DNA from: Actinomycetota bacterium
GTDB lineage: Bacteria; Actinomycetota; Geothermincolia; Geothermincolales; RBG-13-55-18
Direction of reading: 5' to 3'
NCBI GenBank assembly: GCA_013178005.1
Contig: JABLXL010000019.1
Coordinates: forward strand, 1 to 61,371
DNA length: 61,371 nt
A program made the translations under genes and the position numbers. The notes beneath the pieces were generated by a model. It was given only the letters and a program-made list of their open reading frames with translations. It was not told the origin of the DNA and did not search any database. Below, in pieces: positions 35,458 through 61,371 of the stretch (the stretch's first letter is position 1; every line of letters begins with the position of its first letter).

Positions 35458-36543
35458 TCAGGGGTTGAGGACCTCGAGAAAGCGCTCCAGTTTGCCTTTC
35501 TCCTGAAGTATCCTCATACCCATCTCCGAGGTGGTGGCCGGGGGTTCTTGGAAATCGCCCAGGGCCAGCAGGCGCAAGGCGTCGTTGGGGCAGCCCGTGA
35601 CGCACAGGCCGCAGCCTATGCACTTTTCGATGTCCACGGCGGCTTTCTCTTCCTCCACCCTGATGGCGCGCGCCGGGCACCTCTCCTCCGCGCAGACTCC
35701 GCAGCCGTTGCACAGGTCTTCGTCCACCACGGGGGCGAATCCCGAGGAGGTGAAAACGGGAGGGTTTCCCCATTCCAGGCTCATGCGCAGCAGCCCGCAG
35801 CAGCAGGTGCAGCAGTTGCAGACGAAGGTCAGCCGCTCCTGCACGTTGTTGATCTGGTGCACCAGGCCGGCGCGGTCGAACTCGCGCAGTTTCTCCTTCA
35901 TCTCCTCCTTGCTGAGGTAGCGCCCGAAGCCCCTCTCCACCAGGTAAGTGCAGGTCTCGTCGAAGAGCATGCAAGCCTCGCGCGGCGCGTCGCAGTTCCT
36001 CTCCATGTCCCGGCAGGCGCAGGTGGCGATGCCCACCACCTTGGCCCGGTCGATCATGTCGTAGACCTTCTGGTAGGGGAGGACGCCGGGCTCGCTCTCC
36101 ACCTCCTCCTGGATGGGGATGATGCGCGAGAAGCGCGTCTCGGTCCCCCCGAACCGCGTACCCAGCTTGGGCAGGTAACTCCTCCACAAGGGGGTCAGTT
36201 TCTCCCTCATCTCCTCGCCCATCCCCTTCATGTAGGGGAACTCGAAGATGCCCGGCATCACCGGGAGGAGGGCGTAGCCGCGCTTCCCGTCCTTCTCGCG
36301 CACGAAGACCACCCCTTTATCCGCCAGGGAATCGAGGCACCTGCGCGCCGTCTCCGCGTCAACCCCCGCGCGCCGGGCGACGTCCTCGACGCTGAAGGGG
36401 CGGAAGCCGAGTCCGAGCGCCACGCGCGCCTCCTCTTCGCTGAAAAAGATCTTCAGGATCTCGATGATCTCCGGAGCAGGCACGCACCCCGTGGGGTGGC
36501 GGTCCAGCAGTTCCCTAAGCCGCTCGTAGATATCTTCCGCCAT
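35458..36543 (-). CDS. Winged-helix plus 2x[4Fe-4S] ferredoxin protein (paralog group of three)
   Basis: The 361-residue protein has a helical, winged-helix-like N-terminus (about residues 1-110: SVEDVARRAGVDAETARRCLDSLADKGVVF). A Cys-rich centre follows (CACRDMERNCD; NCCTCCCG near 245). The C-terminal ferredoxin domain has CNGCGVCAEERCP and CIGCGLCVTGCP. The likely role is electron transfer or redox sensing; the DNA-binding idea is inference. Two close paralogs lie at 36582-37646 (adjacent, same strand, 38-bp gap) and 56301-57392. One clade-specific expansion with unknown partner enzymes seems likely. AAGGAGGAACATGCC precedes the start. Confidence 0.85.
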   Translation of the reverse strand: MAEDIYERLRELLDRHPTGCVPAPEIIEILKIFFSEEEARVALGLGFRPFSVEDVARRAGVDAETARRCLDSLADKGVVFVREKDGKRGYALLPVMPGIFEFPYMKGMGEEMREKLTPLWRSYLPKLGTRFGGTETRFSRIIPIQEEVESEPGVLPYQKVYDMIDRAKVVGIATCACRDMERNCDAPREACMLFDETCTYLVERGFGRYLSKEEMKEKLREFDRAGLVHQINNVQERLTFVCNCCTCCCGLLRMSLEWGNPPVFTSSGFAPVVDEDLCNGCGVCAEERCPARAIRVEEEKAAVDIEKCIGCGLCVTGCPNDALRLLALGDFQEPPATTSEMGMRILQEKGKLERFLEVLNP

Positions 36544-36581
36544 GGCATGTTCCTCCTTGGTATATTATGGAATATTTGTCC

Positions 36582-37646
36582 CTACTTCTTCTTGCGCATC
36601 TGCGCGGCGATGAAATCCTGCAAGGCTGGTATCTCCCGTGCATCCTCGCGTCGCCGCAGCTCCAGCGCGTCGCCGGAGCAGGTGGGGACGCACACGCCGC
36701 ACCCGAGGCAACGGGCCACGTCGACGACGGCCGTCTCCCCTTCGCCCAGGGTTATGGCCCCCACCGGGCAGCGCTCTTCGCAGGTGCCGCATCCCACGCA
36801 GGCTTCACCGTCGACGTGGGGCACATAGTTGGAGGGAGCCAGGGCGTTGGCGTATCCCAGTTCCTTCCTGGTGTTGATGAACACGCAGCAGCAGCCGCAG
36901 CAGCAGCAGATGGTGGAGACCTTGCCCTGGTAGTTGTCGGTGGAGAACACCAGGCCTTCCTCGTGGGCCTCGCGCAGCTTCTCGAGGGTTTCCTCCAGCG
37001 TCAATTCCCTTCCCATGCCCCTCTCCACCATGTAGCGGCCCATGGATCCGAAGTGGAAGCAATTCTCCCGTTCGTGTTGGCATCCCTTCCCGGCGTAGGC
37101 CTGTATCTGGCGGCAGGGGCAGTAAGCCACCACCCTGTAATCGGCTTCCATTACCAGGTCGCGCACGGTCTCGAAAGGAAGAACCTGGGAACCGGTAGCG
37201 ACTTCCTCCTGCACCGGAGCCACCCTCAAGACGGGGACCTCCCTGTCGCCCAGTTCCCTTCCGAAGGAGGACTCGAAATATCTCCTCCACAGGGGAGCCA
37301 GCTTGCGTACCGTCTCGTTGTCCTTCCCCGGCCAGAAGGGAGTCTCGGAGAAACCCACCACGGTGGGAAGCAGGCGGTATTTCTCCGCTTCTCCCTCCGC
37401 GCTCCTGAAAACGGTCCCCTTTGACACCATGCCATCCAACATGGGCTTCAGCTCCCCAGCGGGCACGCCAGTCATGGAGGAGAGGGAATCCAGGTCCGTG
37501 TTCATGAAAGGCAGCTTGGAGCCCAACTCCGCCTCCTCGGGAGTGAAGAGGATGCGCAGTATCTCCATCAGCTCCTCGCTCATGGGGGCTCCGATGGGCA
37601 TCTTGTCCAGGTGTCTCGCCAGCGCCTCGTAAGCGTCATCGGACAT
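36582..37646 (-). CDS. Winged-helix plus 2x[4Fe-4S] ferredoxin protein (second paralog)
   Basis: 354 residues with the same plan as its neighbour. The N-terminal wHTH-like part is SLSSMTGVPAGELKPMLDGMVSKGTVF. The centre has CPCRQIQAYAGKGCQHERENC and a remarkable ICCCCGCCC cluster. The end is a ferredoxin with CVGCGTCEERCP and CLGCGVCVPTCS. In the last motif the usual CP is CS. ATG 37646 is preferred over ATG 37652 because AAGGAGGAG lies almost against the latter. It is transcribed ahead of the gene at 35458-36543 and probably with it. Confidence 0.85.
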   Translation of the reverse strand: MSDDAYEALARHLDKMPIGAPMSEELMEILRILFTPEEAELGSKLPFMNTDLDSLSSMTGVPAGELKPMLDGMVSKGTVFRSAEGEAEKYRLLPTVVGFSETPFWPGKDNETVRKLAPLWRRYFESSFGRELGDREVPVLRVAPVQEEVATGSQVLPFETVRDLVMEADYRVVAYCPCRQIQAYAGKGCQHERENCFHFGSMGRYMVERGMGRELTLEETLEKLREAHEEGLVFSTDNYQGKVSTICCCCGCCCVFINTRKELGYANALAPSNYVPHVDGEACVGCGTCEERCPVGAITLGEGETAVVDVARCLGCGVCVPTCSGDALELRRREDAREIPALQDFIAAQMRKKK

Positions 37647-56300: not shown

Positions 56301-57392
56301 ATGTCCGAGAAGGTCTGGAACAGGGCGGCGGCGGCCATGATCGCGGCGGGGCCAATACCAATGCCCGTGAACGACACCCTGCTGGAGCTATTGCGCACCA
56401 TCATGGACGAGGAGGAGGCCGAGTTCATCCACATCTTCACCAAGCCTTCTTTGAACATGGCGGAGATAAGGGAACGCTGCGACATGGACGAGGCCGGCAT
56501 AAGATCCATGCTCGACCGCCTCCTGCACAAGGGCGCGCTCATGGTCACCACCAGCAGGAGCACGGGAGTGGAGGTCTTCACCCTCATGCCTCCCTTCCCG
56601 GGGCTCTTCGAGATGACCATGGTGCGCGGGGAGAAGGGGGAGAAGGAAAAGAAGCTGGCGGTGCTCTTCGAGCGGCTTTTCGAGGATCTCTCGCAGATGG
56701 TGCAGGAAAATTATGAAAACGTGGTCGAGGCCATGAAGGTCATACCGCCCATCACCAGGGTGGTGCCGGTGGAATGCGAGGTGGACGTCAAGGGGGAAGG
56801 GGTCATGCCCCTGGAGGACGCCATGGAGATCGTGGACAAGTTCGACACCTTCGCCGTGAGCCACTGCTACTGCCGGCACCACAAGGACCTCCTGGGCAAG
56901 CCTTGCGAGGTGACGGAGGAGAAGGTCAACTGCCTCACCTTCGGGCGCTCGGCCCGCTTCATGATCGACTACGGGTTCGGCAGGGAGATCTCCCGGGAGG
57001 AGGCCAAGAGGATCCTCAGGGAATGCGAGGAGGCGGGGCTGGTCCACAAGTTCTTCCACGAGAAGAACGACCTGGAGAGGGACGAGTTCGCCATCTGTAA
57101 CTGCTGCAGGTGCTGCTGCGGCACCTTCGAGCTCTACTACCGCGGGGCCGCTCCCATGCAGACCTACACCTCCTACCTGGCGGCGGTAGACGGCGACCTG
57201 TGCAACGCCTGCGAGGTGTGCGTGGACATGTGCCCCATGGAGGCCCTGGCCCTTGACGGCGACGCGGTTGCGGTTGACGACGGGAAATGCATAGGGTGCG
57301 GCGTGTGCGCCTACCACTGTCCCGGCGAGGCGCTTTCCCTGCGCAGGACGGGGTTGCGCCAGGTGTTCGTGCCGCCGCGCCGCCTGGGCTAG
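56301..57392 (+). CDS. Winged-helix plus 2x[4Fe-4S] ferredoxin protein (third paralog)
   Basis: 363 residues with the same layout as the genes at 35458 and 36582. The helical N-terminus (NMAEIRERCDMDEAGIRSMLDRLLHKGALMV) is followed by CYCRHHKDLLGKPC and a CNCCRCCCG cluster. The C-terminal ferredoxin has CNACEVCVDMCP and CIGCGVCAYHCP. GGGAGG lies 6 bases before ATG 56301. Two extra copies of its last 33 codons follow the stop (57429-57532 and 57567-57670). The family has an unknown redox or regulatory role. Confidence 0.87.
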   Translation: MSEKVWNRAAAAMIAAGPIPMPVNDTLLELLRTIMDEEEAEFIHIFTKPSLNMAEIRERCDMDEAGIRSMLDRLLHKGALMVTTSRSTGVEVFTLMPPFPGLFEMTMVRGEKGEKEKKLAVLFERLFEDLSQMVQENYENVVEAMKVIPPITRVVPVECEVDVKGEGVMPLEDAMEIVDKFDTFAVSHCYCRHHKDLLGKPCEVTEEKVNCLTFGRSARFMIDYGFGREISREEAKRILRECEEAGLVHKFFHEKNDLERDEFAICNCCRCCCGTFELYYRGAAPMQTYTSYLAAVDGDLCNACEVCVDMCPMEALALDGDAVAVDDGKCIGCGVCAYHCPGEALSLRRTGLRQVFVPPRRLG

Positions 57393-57670
57393 GACGCGCC
57401 CTCCCGCACGGTCTGGCACGGTGATCACATAGGGTGCGGCGTGTGCGCCTACCACTGTCCCGGCGAGGCGCTTTCCCTGCGCAGGACGGGGTTGCGCCAG
57501 GTGTTCGTGCCGCCGCGCCGCCTGGTCTAGGAAGCGGCATCCCGCGGAGACCGGCGCGGCAAGCGCATAGGGTGCGGCGTGTGCGCCTACCACTGTCCCG
57601 GCGAGGCGCTTTCCTTGCGCAGGACGGGGTCGCGCCAGGTGTTCGTGCCGCCGCGCCGCCTGGTCTAGGA
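57291..57670 (+). repeat. Three tandem copies of the ferredoxin gene's 3' end (138-bp period)
   Basis: A 104-bp segment starting ATAGGGTGCGGCGTG lies at 57291-57394 (inside the gene), 57429-57532 and 57567-57670. Copies are about 97% or more identical, and each keeps the stop codon and the half ferredoxin motif GCGVCAYHCP. The 34-bp pieces between copies have the same length but quite different sequence. The last copy is followed by a gene on the opposite strand. Confidence 0.92.
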
Positions 57671-57768
57671 CGTGCCATGGCGCCCAGCCCGGCTAACAAT
57701 GGCGAGGCGGGATCGGCGCTCATCGTCATGGCACCGCGTTGGTTTTCAAGACCGCTCCTGGGATCCGC

Positions 57769-59322
57769 TCAATACAGTAGAACCCTGGCGAAGCCCTCGT
57801 ACATGCCCTCGGCGACCAGTTTTCCGGACAGGGCGCTGAACACGATCCCCCCCGGCCACACCGAATAGTGGCCGGCCATGTAGAGGTTCCTCACCGGGGT
57901 GGTGAACTTCCCGAAACGCCCGAAGAGCGGGGTGTTGTACATGTCGTAGGACCACCCCATGATGGATCCCTGGGGGTTAAGGGTGTATCTCGCCAGGGTG
58001 CGCGGCGTGGCGAGCTCGCGGTACGCAATCCTGTCCCGCAGCCCGGGAAGGATGTATTCGCTGTCCGCGATGACGTCGTCGAGCACCCGCTCCTTGAGGG
58101 CGCGGTAGGCGTCGTTTCGGGCCATGGGGTCCGAGGACCCAGTCCCCCATCCGTTCATCCAGTCGTAGGGGACGGGTATCTGCACTATGATGGAATTTTT
58201 TCCCTCCGGGGCGAGCCCCTTGTCGTGCATGGAGCACCAGCTCATCAGCGCCCATCCCTTGCGGTGCTGCTCCGGGTCATAGATGTCCTGGCGGTTGGAG
58301 TAGGTCCTCCAGTGCACGACGTGGTGGGTCTTCATGAGACGGGCAAGCTCCCCGTCGCTCATGTCCAGGCCGAGGAAGGCGGTGATCACCGAGATGCTCA
58401 CCGGGCCGTTCCTTATCCTCTCACGGTAGCGCGCGGGGAAAAGGGACGGGTCGCACATCTCCGTTACCAGCCGCTTGGGGTTTCCGGTGTTCACCACCTT
58501 TTCCGCGTAATACCTCTCTCCGTCCGCGCACTCGACGCCTACAGCGGTGTTCCCGGAGGTGAGGACGCGGTCCACGGTGCAGGAGAGGCGCAGCTCTCCG
58601 CCCAGGTCCCGGAACCTCGAGGCCAGCATCTCCGCCAGGGCGGCCAGGCCTCCCCTGGGGTACACGTAATCGTACAGAAAGCTGTACCAGAAGGAATAGT
58701 GCATGAAGAGGAGCATGTTGGTGTCGCCGAACTCCCCGAAGAGGAAGGCCAGGCGCGGGTCGCGGAATATCTCCCGCCCCTTCTCCGAGCCCGACTTGCC
58801 AAGGGTCTCGGCCATGGTGCCCAGCATGGGCAGGCCGACCCTGGCCATCCTCGCCAGGTTGCGGTATTTCTCCCGGCCCCTCAGGATCAGGGGGAAGGGA
58901 GCGGACATGAGCTCGCGCATCATCTCGCAGCCCGGCTCGATGAAATCGAACCAGGCGTCTATGTCCCCGGCGGAGTCGGGGAAGAAGCCCTTAAAGTCCT
59001 CGCGCACCTGCTTGAAATCGCGCAATACCACGTCGCAATCGGGAGTAACCCAGCGCCACTCGGAGCGCTCCCACTGCCCCGGGTCGTGTATCCCCAGGTC
59101 CTCAAGGATGGGGAAGAGAATGCCCACGTTCTCCGTGGATTGCGAGCCCGCGTCGAAGTAGAAACCCTTGCGGCGGATGCCCTGGATGTTGCCCCCCACT
59201 GCGTTGCCGTGCTCCAGCAAGAGCACCTTGCGCCCGGAGCGCGCCAGGTAGCAGCCGCAGACCAGTCCCGCCACTCCCGCGCCGATGATCACGACGTCGT
59301 AACGCTCGCCGCTTCCGCTCAT
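57769..59322 (-). CDS. Phytoene-desaturase-like FAD oxidoreductase
   Basis: The 517-residue flavoprotein has YDVVIIGAGVAGLVCGCYLARSG (residues 8-30) and a second FAD motif near the end (NLYMAGHYSVWPGGIVFSALSGKLVAE). This is the CrtI/retinol-saturase pattern. Members desaturate or saturate carotenoids, retinoids or related lipids. Its ATG overlaps the stop of the epimerase gene by four bases (ATGA), so the two are co-translated and likely act on the same lipid or isoprenoid. AAGGAGGG lies just upstream. The open frame to 60324 is an artefact of high GC. Confidence 0.88.
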   Translation of the reverse strand: MSGSGERYDVVIIGAGVAGLVCGCYLARSGRKVLLLEHGNAVGGNIQGIRRKGFYFDAGSQSTENVGILFPILEDLGIHDPGQWERSEWRWVTPDCDVVLRDFKQVREDFKGFFPDSAGDIDAWFDFIEPGCEMMRELMSAPFPLILRGREKYRNLARMARVGLPMLGTMAETLGKSGSEKGREIFRDPRLAFLFGEFGDTNMLLFMHYSFWYSFLYDYVYPRGGLAALAEMLASRFRDLGGELRLSCTVDRVLTSGNTAVGVECADGERYYAEKVVNTGNPKRLVTEMCDPSLFPARYRERIRNGPVSISVITAFLGLDMSDGELARLMKTHHVVHWRTYSNRQDIYDPEQHRKGWALMSWCSMHDKGLAPEGKNSIIVQIPVPYDWMNGWGTGSSDPMARNDAYRALKERVLDDVIADSEYILPGLRDRIAYRELATPRTLARYTLNPQGSIMGWSYDMYNTPLFGRFGKFTTPVRNLYMAGHYSVWPGGIVFSALSGKLVAEGMYEGFARVLLY

Positions 59323-60269
59323 CTCTTTCCCTCCTTGGCCCTGCGTCCCGCCTCCAGGACGAGCTCGAACAACTCCCGCGAGGTGTATCCAGGCCGCCAT
59401 CCCAACTCGCGCTTTATCTTCTCGTTGCTGCCCACCATGGAATAGCGGAACATGTTTATCCAGTGCGAGGATATGGGAGAGAAGCGTAGCCGGAAGGCGA
59501 TGTCCGCTAACGCGCACATGAGATCCGCGGGCACCGAGGGCGCGAACATGCCCGCCCTCCGCAGCATCTCCGAGAGGGCGATGGTGTCGTCGCTGGTGAC
59601 GTGGTATATACCCCTGGCACCGGAGAGCAGCGCCAGCCGCACGGCCTCGGCGAGGTCGTCCTCGTGTATGAACTGGGTATGGGGGTCGGAGTCTGCGGGT
59701 CGCATGGCAAACCTGCGGCTGAAGACCCACGAGATGGTGTTGTCCATGCCTTCTCCCACGATCACGCATGGCCTTAGGATGGTCACGGCCAGCTCGGGCC
59801 GTTCCTGGGCGATGCGGTAAAGGTAATGCTCTATCTCCGCCTTCGCGTAGGAGTAATAACAGCGGGGGTCTCCTCGGGGGAATTCCTCCTCGTCCATGGG
59901 GAAGGGGTTGTCGGGGTAGGCGCCGAAGGCGGCCATGCTGGAGATCTGGATGAGCCGCGGGACTCCCGCGTCCAGGCAGGCGTGGAACACGTTCCTGGAG
60001 CCGTTGATGTTGATGTCGTGGGTTTTCCGCTTGTCCCTTATCTCGTCCAGGACGAAGGCCATGTGCAGGACGGCGTCGCAACCCCGCATGGCCTCCCGGA
60101 CACCCGCGTGGTCGCGCACGTCCAGCTCGCGGAAGTGGAGCTTGCTTGACGGTGAGGCCGGGGGTCGTAGGTCGATGCCCACGATCTCCTCGACGGACGG
60201 CTCGTCCTCCAGGGAACGCAGCACCACCTTGCCCAGGTAGCCGGAAATCCCGCTGATGAAAAGACGCAT
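59319..60269 (-). CDS. NAD-dependent epimerase/dehydratase (extended SDR)
   Basis: The 316-residue Rossmann protein has ISGISGYLGKVVL (GxxGxxG, residues 6-18), IGVDLR-like VGIDLRPP for NAD, ISSMAAFGA, and YSYAKAEIE (catalytic Tyr and Lys). It belongs to the sugar-epimerase / hydroxysteroid-dehydrogenase-like group. The coupled desaturase-like gene hints at a lipid rather than a sugar substrate. GGGAGGAGG precedes ATG 60269 and an extended -10 lies 34 bases further up. Confidence 0.88.
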   Translation of the reverse strand: MRLFISGISGYLGKVVLRSLEDEPSVEEIVGIDLRPPASPSSKLHFRELDVRDHAGVREAMRGCDAVLHMAFVLDEIRDKRKTHDININGSRNVFHACLDAGVPRLIQISSMAAFGAYPDNPFPMDEEEFPRGDPRCYYSYAKAEIEHYLYRIAQERPELAVTILRPCVIVGEGMDNTISWVFSRRFAMRPADSDPHTQFIHEDDLAEAVRLALLSGARGIYHVTSDDTIALSEMLRRAGMFAPSVPADLMCALADIAFRLRFSPISSHWINMFRYSMVGSNEKIKRELGWRPGYTSRELFELVLEAGRRAKEGKR

Positions 60270-60302
60270 GACGACCTCCTCCCACGTTTTGCCTCCAGGA
60301 GG

Positions 60303-60311
60303 ATTGTAGCA
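60303..60311 (-). promoter_or_regulatory. Extended -10 promoter (TGCTACAAT)
   Basis: Read on the minus strand, the nine bases form a TGn plus TACAAT element ending 34 bases before the epimerase ATG. It is similar to the elements at 2390 and 56186. Confidence 0.5.
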
Positions 60312-60640
60312 CCATCTCGGGCACTATGGATATCTATATTGACCAAGAAGTTCAGAATAACTATAGGATAATGCGCGCGCTTTATAGGCCGTGCGCGGCA
60401 ATGGTGGAGCGGTGCCCGCATCGCTCGTAATACGCTCATTTCGCGACGGTCTTGGCGGATCCCGTTGCCGGAGAAGATAGGTCGGCGCGGACGCGGGAGG
60501 ATGGTTAGGGGACGCCGAACCCGGCTGGGAAAGCGCAGCTCGCCAAATGTCGCTGCCGCATCCCCCTATAGGAGGTTTTCCCAGTCGCCCGGTCAGGTTA
60601 AAGGTAAAGTGTGAGAGGGTTGCGTTCCGTTCCGGGGCGG

Positions 60641-60964
60641 AGGGTCGGTTCCCTCCCCGGCGCGGCCGGGCGGAGGCCCCTGGCGGGTACCGAAAGAAGC
60701 CCGCTTTGCGCCCTGTCCTGGTCGTGTCGGGATCGCGTGAAGCGGCGGAGGGTCGGTTCCCTCCCCGGCGCGGCCGGGCGGAGGCCCCTGGCGGGTACCG
60801 AAAGAAGCCCGTTTTGCGCCCTGTCCTGGTCGTGTCGGGATCGCGTGAAGCGGCGGAGGGTCGGTTCCATCCCCGGCGCGGCCGGGCGGAGACCCCTGAC
60901 GGGTTAGGGGAAAAGGCCGCTTTTTACGCCGTCCTTGGCGTGTCATAGTCGCGTGAAGCGGCTG
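60641..60964. repeat. Three tandem copies of a 108-bp unit
   Basis: AGGGTCGGTTCC at 60641, 60749 and 60857 marks units of exactly 108 bp. The first two are about 98% identical and the third about 85%. A 36-residue repeat can be read on either strand, but no start or ribosome site supports a protein. After it, GGGGGTC/GACCCCC (about 60964-60980) forms a short hairpin. The remaining spacer 60312-60640 has no credible gene. Confidence 0.9.
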
Positions 60965-61072
60965 GGGGTCCGCTGACCCCCGTATATCTACCTGCCCAAA
61001 GGTGGGCTAGAATCTAGGAAGGCTCGGAGGAGCGGCGGTTTGCCGCACGGCTTGGCAAGCGAAGGGAGGAGC

Positions 61073-61147
61073 ATGAACATCCTTTTCATCTGCAAGACCC
61101 TTCCCCACGAGAGGGTGATAGGCGGACCCATCATCAAAGGCTCATAG
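61073..61147 (+). pseudogene. First orphan gene-start stub (24 codons)
   Basis: The stub begins MNILFICKTLPHERVIGG, continues with PIIKGS, then stops at the junction with the next repeat. It has a perfect ribosome site, so a short peptide could be made; more likely it is a duplication remnant. Confidence 0.8.
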
Positions 61148-61190
61148 CAGCGGCGGTTTGCCGGATGGCTTGGCAAGCGAAGGGAGGAGC

Positions 61191-61265
61191 ATGGACATCC
61201 TTTTCATCTGCAAGACCCTTCCCCACGAGAAGGTGATAGGCGGACCCATCATCAAAGGCTCGTAG
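61191..61265 (+). pseudogene. Second orphan gene-start stub (24 codons)
   Basis: The stub begins MDILFICKTLPHEKVIGG and stops after GS at the same point as the first stub. It differs from it by two residues (N2D, R14K). Confidence 0.8.
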
Positions 61266-61308
61266 CAGCGGCGGTTTGCCGCACGGCTTGGCAAGCGAAG
61301 GGAGGAGT

Positions 61309-61371
61309 ATGGAAATCCTTTTCATCTGCAAGACCCTTCCCCACGAGAAGGTGATAGGCGGACCCATCATC
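61309..61371 (+). CDS. Start of a glycosyltransferase-like gene (truncated by window end)
   Basis: Only 21 codons are visible (MEILFICKTLPHEKVIGG then PII). The pattern 'ILFI.K.LP...V.GG' at the N-terminus is typical of family 4 glycosyltransferases, where the Gly pair contacts the nucleotide sugar; identification from 21 residues is tentative. It could be either the intact gene or a third stub, since the junction lies beyond the window. Confidence 0.5.
   Translation, partial: MEILFICKTLPHEKVIGGPII

Follow-up and report, generated by a model that had tools for sequence, protein, structure and literature searches.

A tandem triplication of a ferredoxin gene tail with near-identical cores and diverged linkers in an actinobacterial genome

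Introduction

Why should adjacent parts of one repeated unit differ strongly in how far they have diverged, and do surplus gene ends serve any purpose where they stand? These questions arise from a 61,371-bp stretch of DNA (hereafter the window; contig 11 of the 3.6-Mb, 98-contig genome G000), in which the 3′ end of a gene encoding a 363-aa ferredoxin-like protein is present three times in succession. A sequence-only reading of the window had proposed that the copies arose together and that the gene-tail part was held constant, by conversion or selection, while the stretches between drifted. A literature search on this lineage returned nothing relevant.

Results

The ferredoxin gene and its repeated tail

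The 363-aa protein carries a C-terminal dicluster ferredoxin region, with Pfam matches to Fer4 (7.3e-11) and Fer4_10 (2.8e-8); by this protein, the nearest named relative in our contig collection is Candidatus Solincola daggyaiensis (88% identity). The ferredoxin-tailed family is strongly expanded in G000, with more than 30 matches to the protein, two of them inside the window (35557-37622). The closest non-actinobacterial relatives found belong to Asgard archaea (Lokiarchaeota; up to 49% identity; L038-L046), a sequence likeness that suggests transfer between actinobacterial and archaeal groups.

The gene's tail forms the first of three 104-bp cores arranged head to tail at a lag of exactly 138 bp with zero indels (Table 1); TRF calls the array at 57290-57693 with period 138. 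Each core comprises the gene's final codons with the TAG stop and one further base, to which the unit adds a linker; counted per unit, the repeat spans the last 34 codons and 35 bases of flank. Pairwise, the cores differ at 1 (copies 1 and 2), 2 (copies 2 and 3), and 3 (copies 1 and 3) of 104 positions, which together with the TRF call bears out the earlier description of three near-identical copies at an exact period. Of the three differences among cores, two are nonsynonymous (Gly to Val and Leu to Ser). The spare copies had also been described as retaining half a ferredoxin motif and a stop, and this is confirmed: both keep the in-frame TAG and read IGCGVCAYHCPGEALSLRRTG(L/S)RQVFVPPRRLV*, with I-G-C-G-V-C-A-Y-H-C-P through to the stop in the gene's frame. 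Three of the four motif cysteines are kept in each, the first being replaced by a different residue in either copy (Table 1); judged from known 4Fe-4S motifs, a spare copy by itself would probably not bind a cluster.

The ferredoxin stop lies 376 bp from the convergent ORF; subtraction of two 138-bp units (276 bp) leaves 100 bp, which falls inside the range of two congeners. A FAD/NAD oxidoreductase-like convergent neighbor is also present in G001 and G002.

Table 1. Features of the ferredoxin-tail locus (window coordinates).
Feature	Position	Strand	Description
363-aa protein gene	56301..57392	+	Two C-terminal 4Fe-4S motifs; own tail is core copy 1
Core copy 1	57290..57393	+	Gene's last codons, TAG stop, one extra base
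Linker 1	57394..57427	+	34 bp, 62% identical to linker 2
Core copy 2	57428..57531	+	1 mismatch vs copy 1 (Gly to Val before stop); first Cys codon to His
Linker 2	57532..57565	+	34 bp
Core copy 3	57566..57669	+	3 mismatches vs copy 1 (Leu to Ser, Gly to Val, and a silent change); first Cys codon to Arg
3′ flank in "linker 3" position	57670..57703	+	Weak similarity to linkers 1 and 2 (16-18/34)
Convergent ORF (mechanical listing)	57769..60324	-	C-terminal part reads as FAD/NAD oxidoreductase

Divergence of cores and linkers

The spacers had been read as alike in length but not in sequence, and the second half of that claim fails: linkers 1 and 2 are identical at 21 of their 34 bases, ungapped and in register, where shuffles that keep composition give about 10 (p 4.5e-5). 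The 3′ flank matches linker 2 at 18/34 (p 0.003) and linker 1 at 16/34 (p 0.016). Since the linkers are homologous in register, the duplicated unit was longer than the core; the final linker codons (HGDH, RGKR) bear a faint resemblance to the DGKC that precedes the core in the gene itself, and the unit may therefore have started slightly upstream of the core.

Compared base by base, as the sequence-only reading had proposed, units 1 and 2 diverge by 1% in the core vs 38% in the linker (Fisher 1.9e-8), with a similar contrast between units 2 and 3 (Fisher 7.5e-10), and the clustering of mismatches in the array was reached by 0 of 1000 shuffles. The opposite outcome, in which gapped spacers would align well and divergence would be equal throughout, was not observed; gapped alignment brought no useful gain in identity over ungapped alignment for any pair of linkers. 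Equal drift of cores and linkers is excluded. The closest pair is copies 1 and 2 by cores and by linkers alike, a pattern that a plain difference in rate would also give. No inverted repeats were found in the array region, nor were any apparent by eye, and hairpin formation or loop inversion was rejected as the source of the linker changes.

Distribution and age of the array

Orthologs of the 363-aa protein occur in nine relatives at 74-88% amino acid identity, and the array is not present at any of the nine orthologous loci, those of two congeners included (four loci were run through TRF and the remaining tails read 3′ of the stop, the G011 locus ending ~80 bp past it). Age is harder to place. 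The Jukes-Cantor (JC) distance between linkers 1 and 2 is 0.53, greater than the 0.38 that separates G000 from the congener G001 at four-fold sites, while the cores differ by 1-3%. Were linkers to evolve at the pace of four-fold sites, the array would predate the split from G001. Intergenic DNA of G000 and G001 is no longer alignable by eye, however, and the linkers may therefore simply evolve faster. At loci syntenic with other G000 arrays, relatives are often about one period shorter, e.g., by 110 for a period of 111 and 112 for 113.

Tandem arrays across the genome

A sample of 1.26 Mb of G000 (approximately a third of the genome), searched for copy pairs at lags of 50-419 bp, contained 85 array loci, or about one per 15 kb, with a median period of 118 bp; 55 of the 85, and 25 of the 29 gene-tail arrays, have their sequence at a single locus. 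Placed against a simple codon-based gene call, the arrays avoid gene interiors (15 observed vs 51 expected), and those inside genes have a period divisible by three in 14 of 15 cases (p 2e-6). More arrays than expected are intergenic (35 vs 6.4), and arrays overlapping only a stop (27) are in excess relative to those overlapping only a start (6; expected 9.1 and 9.7; p 1.5e-4). The excess at stops is not significant in G002 (6 stop-only, 3 start-only). Since the first stop remains functional, duplication of a gene tail carries no cost, and selection against damage to genes would be expected to produce just such a stop bias with avoidance of interiors. G002, of the same genus, and G006, of the same family, are comparably array-rich; G001 and G005 are array-poor.

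Two further arrays lie in the window: an intergenic 108-bp array of ~2.5 units (60636-60904) and, just behind it, a tandem array of 118 bp x 3 (61019-61371) that reaches the contig end, such that the assembly stops within the repeat. A dispersed palindromic element (GGGGTCGTGTCTTTACTTTTTCATTCCGCC...GTCAAGACACGACCC) occurs in tandem at L146:2343, L067:19696, L140:12837, L065:12520, and L071:7743. Its variation is concentrated in the loop; at L146, the loop of unit 2 differs from the version common to units 1 and 3. As members of this family, L067, L140, and L146 were rejected as clean parallels to the ferredoxin array. A regular array in G002 (L090:18234-19967), in which two-unit repeat-spacer blocks are duplicated, was likewise set aside as an ordinary CRISPR array with 36-bp repeats, and a "complex" repeat (L076:1-2081), which begins with masked N, was left out.

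The core-linker contrast is partly general. Among the 12 G000 arrays of at least three units, four, the ferredoxin tail included, confine their variation to a zone in a way that none of 40 permutations reached; the other three are L057:917, L165:10208, and the dispersed element at L146:2343. Most arrays in G002 are near-uniform in divergence. In the gene-tail pairs L139, L143, L144, L171, and L068 the coding part is 94-100% identical and the post-stop part clearly lower (94-99% vs 62-71% in the two-copy arrays L139, L143, and L171), whereas divergence is even in L058, L073, L159:586, and L165 (units 1-2). In all six arrays that retain diverged homology on a single side, that side is the non-coding one. 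Homologous stretches end between -4 and +8 bases from the stop in 8 of 26 cases (p 5e-5 against a uniform 240-base range, a rough null with the interval picked post hoc). Purely intergenic arrays also carry a core and a diverged remainder; coding is therefore not required for the contrast, and the boundary at the stop codon may be partly coincidence.

Discussion

Origin and maintenance of the array

We consider it reasonably probable that the locus reflects a lineage-specific tandem triplication, neutral behind the first stop, whose cores were later homogenised by local recombination. Tandem duplication would have added two 138-bp units, each made of the end of the 4Fe-4S gene and its flank, and would have been harmless since the intact gene still ends at its first stop codon. 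The spare tails would be untranslated DNA in a convergent intergenic gap, where the array is probably neutral. Local homologous recombination between the 104-bp cores, by gene conversion or unequal exchange, would keep them alike, while the unconstrained linkers would diverge until they could no longer pair and would then drop out of exchange. Constraint on a single functional copy reduces the divergence between copies by about half at most. Selection acting only on copy 1 is therefore insufficient to produce 1% vs 38%; local recombination between cores could do so. We infer neutrality and homogenisation from sequence comparison within a single genome of the species, in an incomplete 98-contig assembly whose copy number could be wrong. 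The earlier proposal of common tandem origin, held cores, and drifting linkers survives as the best reading of linkers that are 62% identical in exact register; selection on the spare copies as coding sequence appears unlikely for reasons given below.

Among the alternatives, the one that best withstands the data is a recent duplication of the core alone beside unrelated DNA, in which the likeness of the linkers would reflect base composition and no homogenisation would be needed. The 97-99% identity of the cores and the GC-rich linkers (68-76%) are compatible with such an event. However, the match between linkers 1 and 2 stands in exact register with composition kept in the null, and the linkers are exactly equal in length, which leaves this account improbable.

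Still less probable is that purifying selection, rather than recombination, holds the cores as a DNA or RNA element such as a regulator site, 3′ UTR element, or small RNA. All three cores are indeed strongly conserved relative to the linkers, but an Rfam search of the array region gave zero matches, its folding energy is no better than that of shuffles (z 0.81), and an RNA element was rejected on these grounds. Terminators or promoters at each copy were likewise rejected, as no such site was found in the region; the suggestion that transcripts might end at each copy has no support from the sequence, given the lack of terminator-like sites and the shuffle-like folding. Moreover, the core sequence occurs at no other site in G000, relatives lack the array, and the recurrence of comparable patterns in many unrelated arrays suggests that a general process is at work.

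It is very unlikely that the spare tails are translated by in-frame read-through of the stop (138 = 3 x 46) and selected as protein. All units share one frame and keep the stop, and pooled differences between coding-tail copies comprise 25 silent and 20 changing codons, above the ~28% silent expected by chance; constraint on the functional first copy alone would nevertheless bias this ratio. Read-through would have to pass two intervening TAG stops, and coding selection on the spares is made unlikely by the loss of the first cluster cysteine from both, the change of residue in two of three core differences, and the periods of other tail arrays, which cover all three classes modulo 3 and so are not confined to multiples of three.

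An assembly artefact, with copies collapsed or chained by short-read assembly, is scarcely credible: although the assembly is of metagenome type and the contig ends inside another array, the three linkers are distinct and each found once, graph collapse could not make 38%-diverged cores identical, and G002, a genome with long contigs, has an equally high density of arrays (7.0 vs 6.3 per 100 kb).

Array abundance and DNA repair

Ku, MutS, and NucS were undetected at curated cut-offs in G000, G002, and G006; their lack would relax the barrier to exchange between imperfect copies, but the link to the arrays is only a lead. MutS_V is missing in 14 of the 15 genomes searched and present only in array-poor G001; G005, however, lacks MutS_V and yet yielded zero arrays by TRF in 140 kb, and loss of repair genes was not accepted as an established cause. 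A wider account, in which short tandem duplications number a few hundred in this lineage and are in many cases anchored at stops, with tails homogenised by recombination that is unusually free for want of MutS- and NucS-type mismatch repair and Ku end-joining, is one we regard as doubtful. If true, the arrays would show in a natural setting how duplication and conversion respond to the loss of repair.

Comparison with known repeat systems

Constant and variable parts alternate at a regular period here as in CRISPR arrays. However, the repeat is a 104-bp gene tail, and the linkers, rather than being mutually unrelated like CRISPR spacers, are diverged homologues of each other (21/34, p 4.5e-5). 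The 138-bp unit occupies one locus in the genome, unlike a MIRU- or REP-like dispersed family, whose unit recurs at many.

In concerted evolution of duplicates, coding parts remain alike while flanks diverge. The array resembles this in its near-identical cores beside diverged flanks, the copies being more alike within the genome than the neutral flanks (Fisher 1.9e-8). It departs from the classic case in that the cores are only ~100 bp long and a single copy is functional, and here exchange is what we infer.

The constant-size, variable-sequence tandem repeats of Bacillus (Subirana and Messeguer 2021; PMC8161180) are, like the G000 arrays, numerous per genome and species-specific, with constant and variable parts in the unit. 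Their unit sizes are fixed at 52 or 20-21 nt, unlike the period of 138 in the ferredoxin array or the periods in G000 generally, which vary widely around their median of 118 and belong to mostly unrelated sequences.

The array is a bacterial minisatellite (VNTR) of known kind, lineage-specific and of gene-tail type. It shares with such loci head-to-tail copies at a regular period, units of tens to a hundred bp in few copies, and lineage-specific expansion of one intergenic gap, being found at none of the nine orthologous loci. In the M. tuberculosis MIRU-VNTR set, ETR-F (VNTR3239) lies between rnc and fpg1 and has composite units (37 bp + 18 bp; 37 + 26 + 16) (PMC2734929). The ferredoxin unit differs from M. 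tuberculosis VNTR in that it contains the end of a gene, stop codon included, sits on the 3′ side of that gene, and is known from one genome. What is unusual is the genome-wide abundance of arrays in a lineage where MutS, NucS, and Ku went undetected. A set of this kind, from a lineage with relatives named Candidatus Solincola, would make it possible to measure in nature the rate of duplication, the selection against it, and how short a sequence can still undergo local gene conversion.
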